From Apostichopus japonicus (Eukaryota > Echinodermata > Holothuroidea > Aspidochirotida > Stichopodidae), in assembly GCF_037975245.1 (NCBI RefSeq), contig NC_092580.1, forward strand, positions 25,774,501 through 25,838,500: a stretch of DNA of 64,000 nt, in the 5' to 3' direction. The notes beneath the pieces were generated by a model. That model did not search any database. It was given only the letters and a program-made list of their open reading frames with translations, and was not told the origin of the DNA. Made by a program: the position numbers and the translations under genes. Positions within the stretch are counted from its first letter, which is position 1. Each line of letters opens with the position of its first letter. Shown here one piece after another: positions 17,536 to 43,067 of the stretch.

Positions 17536-17599
17536 ATGACAGTTCTTTTTATTGGTTTGCCGCTCCTCGTCATTCGCTTAGTTGTGTTTGCGTCCACGG
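17536..17599 (+). CDS. Gene B exon 1: signal peptide
   Basis: ATG followed by [20 protein letters not shown], a typical hydrophobic signal sequence, then Thr and a split Gly/Val codon at a gtaagt donor. The length, 64 bp ending in phase 1, is identical to exon 1 of gene C, whose peptide also contains LVIRL. This shared design supports the chosen start. Confidence 0.75.

Positions 17600-43067: not shown

Follow-up and report, generated by a model that had tools for sequence, protein, structure and literature searches.

The sea cucumber Apostichopus japonicus encodes an immunoglobulin (Ig) receptor whose tail is assembled from 40 microexons, and residue patterns together with the structure model of a relative support a correspondence in which the typical microexon encodes a single alpha-helix. 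This gene, here called gene B, has four Ig-like regions and one transmembrane (TM) span and lies in the 64,000-nucleotide stretch of DNA that we analysed (the window; C20:25774501-25838500), which holds the 3′ part of a paralog (gene A), all of gene B and the 5′ part of another paralog (gene C). Gene B extends on the + strand from the ATG at 17536 to a stop codon ending at 43067, the same ends as in a preliminary description of this DNA, and its product of 1251 residues corresponds to the NCBI protein P0001 ('uncharacterized protein isoform X3', Apostichopus japonicus). The introns between the head and TM exons are of phase 1, the juxtamembrane exon leads over to phase 0, and 40 short exons of 27-63 bp follow (18 of 54 bp and eight of 42 bp) before the last exon. 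The exons outside the microexon array are:

17536..17599, + strand: exon 1, start codon and signal peptide, identical in P0001
18079..18393, + strand: V-set Ig ectodomain exon (splice reading, Pfam, P0001)
19275..19901, + strand: ectodomain exon, Ig 2 (C2-like) and Ig 3 (V-like) (Pfam, P0001)
20311..20649, + strand: ectodomain exon with the fourth Ig-like region (assigned by eye; Pfam gives none above its cut-off)
20903..21022, + strand: TM exon (P0001)
21149..21231, + strand: juxtamembrane exon, switch from phase 1 to phase 0 (P0001 fits a start at 21152)
42804..43067, + strand: last exon, 264 bp, charged C-terminus and stop (AATAAA at 43211)

The tail microexons (numbered; all in P0001) and three doubtful cassette exons are:

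21656..21682, + strand: microexon 1, 27 bp
21820..21852, + strand: microexon 2, 33 bp
22089..22142, + strand: microexon 3, 54 bp, GC donor (P0001 fits 22089-22146, 58 bp)
22729..22782, + strand: microexon 4, 54 bp (P0001 fits 22733-22782, 50 bp)
23265..23321, + strand: microexon 5, 57 bp, gene C homologue
23725..23775, + strand: microexon 6, 51 bp, gene C homologue
23907..23960, + strand: microexon 7, 54 bp, gene C homologue
24164..24217, + strand: microexon 8, 54 bp, gene C homologue
27053..27106, + strand: microexon 9, 54 bp, gene C homologue
28321..28374, + strand: microexon 10, 54 bp, gene C homologue
28727..28789, + strand: microexon 11, 63 bp
29137..29190, + strand: microexon 12, 54 bp
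29390..29443, + strand: microexon 13, 54 bp
29772..29819, + strand: microexon 14, 48 bp
30228..30272, + strand: microexon 15, 45 bp
30804..30851, + strand: microexon 16, 48 bp
30968..31021, + strand: microexon 17, 54 bp
31572..31625, + strand: microexon 18, 54 bp
32683..32730, + strand: microexon 19, 48 bp
33625..33678, + strand: microexon 20, 54 bp
34866..34904, + strand: microexon 21, 39 bp
(microexons 22 to 40 are assigned to module rounds by lag-5 similarity)
35209..35262, + strand: microexon 22, 54 bp, round 1 exon 1
35391..35444, + strand: microexon 23, 54 bp, round 1 exon 2
35537..35578, + strand: microexon 24, 42 bp, round 1 exon 3
35864..35905, + strand: microexon 25, 42 bp, round 1 exon 4
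36927..36965, + strand: microexon 26, 39 bp, round 1 exon 5
37206..37259, + strand: microexon 27, 54 bp, round 2 exon 1
37417..37470, + strand: microexon 28, 54 bp, round 2 exon 2
37604..37645, + strand: microexon 29, 42 bp, round 2 exon 3
37819..37860, + strand: microexon 30, 42 bp, round 2 exon 4
38186..38224, + strand: microexon 31, 39 bp, round 2 exon 5
38508..38564, + strand: microexon 32, 57 bp, round 3 exon 1
39203..39256, + strand: microexon 33, 54 bp, round 3 exon 2
39433..39474, + strand: microexon 34, 42 bp, round 3 exon 3
40480..40521, + strand: microexon 35, 42 bp, round 3 exon 4
40873..40917, + strand: microexon 36, 45 bp, round 3 exon 5
41597..41650, + strand: microexon 37, 54 bp, round 4 exon 1
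41891..41944, + strand: microexon 38, 54 bp, round 4 exon 2
42457..42498, + strand: microexon 39, 42 bp, round 4 exon 3
42618..42659, + strand: microexon 40, 42 bp, round 4 exon 4
30460..30525, + strand: doubtful cassette exon, 66 bp, open, symmetric, absent from P0001
36570..36608, + strand: doubtful cassette exon, 39 bp, open, symmetric, absent from P0001
38309..38350, + strand: doubtful cassette exon, 42 bp, open, symmetric, absent from P0001

A candidate exon at 23564 was rejected because its donor shifts the frame, and the stretch 28529-28580 looks by eye like a decayed copy of microexon 10. At the juxtamembrane exon, a cagcag acceptor at 21149-21152 accounts for an extra Ala that is present in P0002 and missing from P0001.

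The joined translation of the 40 microexons agrees with P0001 at 647 of 649 residues, which establishes the exon array as real. The two mismatches are adjacent and both derive from the junction of microexons 3 and 4, where P0001 is matched exactly by a GT donor after 22146 and an acceptor before 22733 (exons of 58 and 50 bp, phase-1 intron); the other reading places the donor after 22142 and yields a GC-AG intron of phase 0. The GC donor (22142-22147) has the GT donor 4 bp downstream, two acceptors lie 4 bp apart at 22729-22733, and either pairing keeps the frame. It had previously been proposed that the array comprises 41 exons of 27-63 bp, all of lengths divisible by three and all flanked by phase-0 introns. 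The size range holds and the count comes close to the 40 of the P0001-matched reading; divisibility by three is borne out in the phase-0 reading but fails for microexons 3 and 4 in the P0001 model, in which their junction is the only one of the tail to depart from phase 0.

Splice sites were scored with approximate matrices typed from general knowledge. Between 21.6 and 42.7 kb, a threshold of 11 returned 45 symmetric, in-frame-open and non-overlapping exons on the + strand versus six on the - strand, compared to a mean of 3.8 and a maximum of nine candidates in 30 first-order Markov shuffles. Raising the threshold to 13 left 33 candidates on the + strand, three on the - strand and 1.2 in the shuffles, and at 15 the respective numbers were 25, one and 0.6. 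The seven tail exon pairs common to genes B and C display a pS of 0.81 and a pN of 0.41, and this ratio of about one half fits coding sequence under constraint. That the short exons are unused, being either an artefact of gene prediction or remnants of a decaying gene, appears extremely improbable to us: gene predictors do have common assumptions on splice sites, but the excess of candidates on the + strand, the tiling of independent database proteins by the microexons, the twofold difference between pS and pN and the helix caps at the exon starts described below all argue against it.

The paralogs in the window were read as follows:

767..8534, + strand: gene A, 3′ part (P0010 and splice scan)
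767-823, 962-1015, 1296-1349, 2016-2069, 2518-2571, 3151-3204, + strand: gene A tail exons of 54-57 bp
3519-3572, 4743-4796, 5378-5431, 5940-5993, 6576-6629, 7123-7176, + strand: gene A exon array
7817-7870, 8039-8080, 8317-8340, + strand: gene A exons after the array, with the last exon at 8508-8534 (by eye)
54928..63501, + strand: gene C, 5′ part; the tail runs on beyond the window
54928-54991, 55438-55752, 56688-57314, 57662-58015, + strand: gene C head exons
58493-58642, + strand: gene C TM exon
58895-58977, + strand: gene C juxtamembrane exon
59353-59427, 59715-59768, 60615-60671, 60908-60958, 61089-61142, + strand: gene C tail exons
61639-61692, 62017-62070, 62564-62617, 63145-63219, 63448-63501, + strand: gene C tail exons, continued

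Since the tail scans of gene A, gene C and a further copy at C20 25.542-25.570 Mb (the P0007 gene) took only lengths divisible by three, the evidence lies in the tiling of independent proteins by such exons. Gene A gave 29 candidate tail rows: 25 match P0010 from end to end without a mismatch, two extend a shorter exon too far and two are absent from P0010. For the P0007 gene, 35 of 36 tail rows are identical to P0007 over their whole length and one is an over-long reading of a shorter exon; 26 of the rows are 54 bp long. Gene C resembles P0003 ('putative neuroglian-like isoform 2'), with 21 tail rows that are each at least 60% like P0003 and an agreement of 438 of 472 residues in the ectodomain (93%) and 332 of 381 in the 21 tail exons (87%). 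Each of the four loci of the family that were read at the DNA level (genes A, B and C and the P0007 gene) has a tail of short exons whose lengths are multiples of three. Searching this genome (671.6 Mb, 35 contigs) with the ectodomain of gene B returned one copy at 97-99% identity, gene C at 56-66% and further matches on C20 at 29-46% near 25.26-25.77 Mb and 2.99-3.08 Mb, the counts being at least these. No relatives outside A. japonicus were present among the approximately 8000 word-sharing candidates scored in each of three protein searches.

The V-set exon of P0010 is located at about 25580684 on C20 (within 25579001-25582000, 90 of 90 residues), and the next Ig exon of gene A lies about 8.6 kb upstream of the window and about 185 kb downstream of this V-set exon. 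Gene A would thus contain a very long intron, or two places have been joined by the model or the assembly. On contig C23, I-set Ig matches are densely clustered at about 14.8-15.1 Mb, and some of them lie in open frames that exceed 2000 codons.

We judged the residue pattern at the exon starts against the N-cap motif of alpha-helices. Among the 38 of 40 gene B microexons with at least 13 residues, the second residue is S/T/D/N/P in 28 (27% by composition), the fifth is E/D/Q in 18 (21% by composition) and the last is K in 15 (12% by composition), with a modestly raised helical moment of the exons (z 2.3). This pattern resembles that of an N-capped helix. In an AF2 model of P0009 built from eight family sequences, with a block-mean pLDDT of about 65-90 over residues 451-800, residues 595-769 form ten successive 13-residue helices that start every 18 residues, which is the length of a 54-bp exon. 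We located the exon starts of P0009 through their homologues among the exons read from the DNA; three of the 34 are second copies in a three-exon block. Only three of 34 junctions in the whole tail and none of 19 at residues 450-800 fall inside a helix, while 65-66% of the positions do. In a circular-shift control over the whole tail, 199 of 20000 shifts were at or below the observed value, and because the array is periodic some of these shifts fall back into register. The model of the B-like P0002 is poor (mean pLDDT 38) and places four of 29 junctions inside a helix, compared to 59% of positions. A test for consecutive helices packed into a superhelix, as in alpha-solenoid repeat proteins of the HEAT, TPR and PPR class, found the string to be clear in the P0009 model, the fold matches to be generic and weak and the B-type model to be poor. 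Taken together, the residue pattern and the model of a relative support the view that the typical microexon encodes one alpha-helix with its N-cap at the second residue of the exon, so that intron positions would fall in the loops between helices, and that the array may form an alpha-solenoid-like string of helices.

The last 19 microexons of gene B encode 18-18-14-14-13, 18-18-14-14-13, 19-18-14-14-15 and 18-18-14-14 residues, i.e. four rounds of a five-exon module. Exon similarity at lag 5 amounts to 0.86 per residue and at lag 10 to 0.81, the other lags up to nine are below zero, and none of 2000 order shuffles reached the lag-5 value; no five-exon period was found in the first 19 long microexons. 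Exon order and the modelled relative thus support a last tail part that would consist of a five-helix module in four rounds. Gene A contains at 3519-7176 a tandem array of a 54-bp exon copied together with its introns, in which two stretches of 300 bp, separated by 1.2 kb, have 99% identity. P0010 carries six members of this array in a row, five of them very alike, and P0009 carries its three-exon block twice. Ten of the 40 gene B microexons have no counterpart of at least 50% identity in P0002 (the remaining exons agree at 379 of 482 residues); for eight of the ten the flanking exons adjoin in P0002, which could also be an annotation gap, and the other two have diverged. Hence, the tails change by duplication, introns included, and by loss or divergence of whole exons or exon blocks. 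A further copy in the gene A array at 4120-4182 is absent from P0010 and may, by eye, be decayed. We also noted three stretches (14500-16100, 24500-26000 and 46200-49600) that by eye we take to be Penelope-type retroelements, the last with an open stretch of 829 codons. The one at 24500-26000 sits in an intron of gene B that also contains two short tRNA-like repeat copies (26480-26560 and 26840-26925, by eye) beside long AT repeats.

A protein search of the joined tail, proposed as a check in the preliminary description, recognised no known family in Pfam or among PDB sequences. For gene B, Pfam listed two families with a best E of 0.46 and neither NACHT nor LRR; across seven family proteins all tail matches stayed below the cut-offs (best E 0.0024, B-block_TFIIIC in P0010), again with no LRR, and a DUF6377 match in P0003 (E 0.0015, below the cut-off) spans the TM segment and the start of the tail. 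No PDB sequence matched the tail at E 1, and Foldseek and VIA returned many unrelated alpha-solenoids with low scores, none standing out. By eye the five-helix module and PPR-like exon pairs might recall a death fold or PPR proteins, which we do not claim as neither had a library match. The tail of P0001 contains no ITAM and one ITIM-like match (0.9 in shuffles), and no signalling motif exceeded the shuffled expectation. Since the tail thus lacks a recognised domain, PDB sequence or signalling motif, the best functional anchor is the ectodomain homology with P0005, an Ig protein with a NACHT domain (22% identity to P0001 over 404 residues, 3e-19) and, among the relatives with a recognised domain in the tail, the nearest in the ectodomain. 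By this analogy, the product of gene B may be a receptor at the cell surface whose inner part serves as a helical docking scaffold.

The explanation that we consider reasonably probable as a whole is that gene B encodes an Ig receptor with a constitutive helix-exon tail, which serves as a helical docking scaffold and is remodelled by germline exon turnover. The Ig ectodomain would bind its ligand at the coelomocyte surface, and the helix string would dock cytoplasmic partners, its length and surface being set by the helix exons present. Most microexons would be included constitutively; as the exons are frame-neutral, the tail could gain or lose helices exon by exon, and the main effect of the frame symmetry would be that such germline changes do no harm, whereas the skipping of cassettes would come second. 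Exon symmetry permits skipping but does not show it, and we therefore rank this account first and a splicing repertoire second. In the latter, a single gene would yield a repertoire of tails, as the microexons would act as cassettes of which different cells or tissues splice different subsets to the same ectodomain. The symmetric phases allow this, and NCBI names of family proteins include 'isoform X2' and 'isoform X3', while the 90% clusters of P0001, P0004, P0007 and P0010 hold five, seven, five and four sequences from one contig each; labels and cluster sizes fit several isoforms per gene, and where the isoforms differ is not given by them. A 48-bp exon of gene A is in P0007 yet not in P0010, and the three open symmetric candidates of gene B outside P0001 could be further cassettes. 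However, the threshold applied is expected to let through about four to six spurious candidates per strand, so these extra exons may be due to chance, and the presence of six related 54-bp array exons together in the P0010 chain argues against mutually exclusive use. We regard the splicing repertoire as unlikely. A purely structural spacer, in which the helix string would act as a linker, mechanical or of the membrane skeleton, that has no specific partner and depends on length but hardly on sequence, would be in line with the varying exon number among family members and with no interaction motif standing out. It seems quite improbable to us, as the tails are under purifying selection (omega 0.54, interval 0.32-0.92) and genes B and C retain homologous exons in the same order.

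Unlike the constitutive tail with germline turnover, polymorphic tails would mean that different animals carry different helix strings behind a nearly identical ectodomain, driven by an intracellular arms race or self-recognition. P0001 and P0002, the latter a protein of a different A. japonicus assembly, have identities of 96.9% in ectodomain and TM segment and 70.6% in the tail, with identity falling along the tail (rank correlation -0.61 over 30 common exons); a second ectodomain at this level was not found in this genome, and with only one at 97-99%, P0002 looks like gene B in another assembly. On the other hand, P0002 may be a paralog, and the same pattern would arise if the 5′ end had undergone gene conversion. 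The tail of P0009, a protein from a contig of equal length, is closer to those of P0007 and P0004 than to that of gene A's P0010, gene C and P0003 differ less (93% and 87%, as above), and for gene A versus the P0007 gene (20 exon pairs, the array of gene A left out) the omega of 0.54 in the tail and of 0.39 (0.25-0.64) in the ectodomain have overlapping intervals. Polymorphic tails are thus improbable in our judgement. The earlier notion of a fixed ectodomain and a variable tail is borne out by gene B versus P0002 and more weakly by B versus C (a dN of 0.58 for the seven tail exons, compared to 0.28 for the head), but not by gene A versus the P0007 gene, where the difference is not significant. 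As these omega intervals overlap and the tail dS between B and C is saturated, we reject faster evolution of the tail as a rule and treat tail variability as a lead that comes mostly from one pair. More tentatively, and in our estimate rather unlikely, diversification in this receptor system might concern the inside and not the outside. Conserved Ig ectodomains would then be combined with strings of single-helix exons that vary between paralogs and perhaps between individuals, which would connect a given surface specificity to different partners in the cytoplasm, or else the tails would be engaged in an intracellular arms race.

Fibrillar collagen genes are built from 54-bp phase-0 exons of 18 residues that were multiplied by exon duplication. 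Such exons recur in gene B, but in collagen they encode extracellular Gly-X-Y fibre segments and not the putative capped alpha-helices of a receptor tail. In schistosome micro-exon genes (MEGs), series of short exons, whose lengths are for the most part divisible by three, are separated by longer introns (PMC10526429). Gene B likewise has many short symmetric exons (40 of 27-63 bp, one junction ambiguous), but it encodes 1251 residues with a TM exon, whereas MEGs encode small secreted proteins (the longest of 189 residues) with exons of mostly 15 bp and include no Ig receptor (PMC10526429). Shrimp Dscam (Penaeus monodon) is an Ig receptor with modular tail exons, seven of which can be included or skipped, and with up to 13 tail exons (PMC6851185). 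It differs from gene B in an ectodomain of Ig and FNIII domains that bears most of the diversity, and no helix array is reported in the accessible text (PMC6851185). No FNIII was among the best 25 Pfam families listed for the gene B head, whose exons are Ig-like, TM or signal, and Dscam-type arrays of alternative ectodomain exons were absent, with one match per ectodomain part in B and C (264-kb region, E 1e-5). The LRR of human NLRP3 is cut by introns into repeat modules, and skipping of a single exon removes a partner-binding surface (PMC6642158). This immune-receptor repeat domain with droppable single exons uses a 171-bp LRR exon in a cytosolic sensor, in contrast to a TM receptor whose exons of 27-63 bp are predicted to encode single helices. 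AjNLRC4 of A. japonicus combines Ig with NACHT and is located by its authors at the coelomocyte membrane; its Ig part mediates the binding of microbes, and the receptor promotes coelomocyte phagocytosis (PMC8699970). It stems from the same species, and the Ig ectodomain of P0005 is homologous to that of gene B. The cytoplasmic parts of AjNLRC4 and P0005 contain a NACHT, none of which is recognised in the tail of gene B, and for AjNLRC4 two TM spans are reported (PMC8699970) compared to one. A 2026 review of immune diversification describes germline gene families for echinoderms, and the word 'microexon' does not occur in its accessible text (PMC13428168). MEGs, Dscam tails and NLR LRR exons each parallel the gene B tail in part. 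Among the open PubMed Central papers listed in our searches, we found no description of this receptor family or of a receptor tail with one helix per exon, which agrees with the preliminary statement that no Ig receptor tail built this way had been described, within the limit set by the shrimp Dscam tail exons.

The strongest new points are the correspondence between exon and helix and the modular growth of the tail. If our reading is right, intron positions mark single secondary-structure elements and are kept so while the exons still duplicate, and protein evolution by 'one exon, one helix' would be testable in a living gene cluster. To our knowledge, sea cucumbers are without vertebrate-type lymphocytes; if right, the genes described here represent an uncharacterised Ig receptor family in these animals, of which the tail may be the changeable part.
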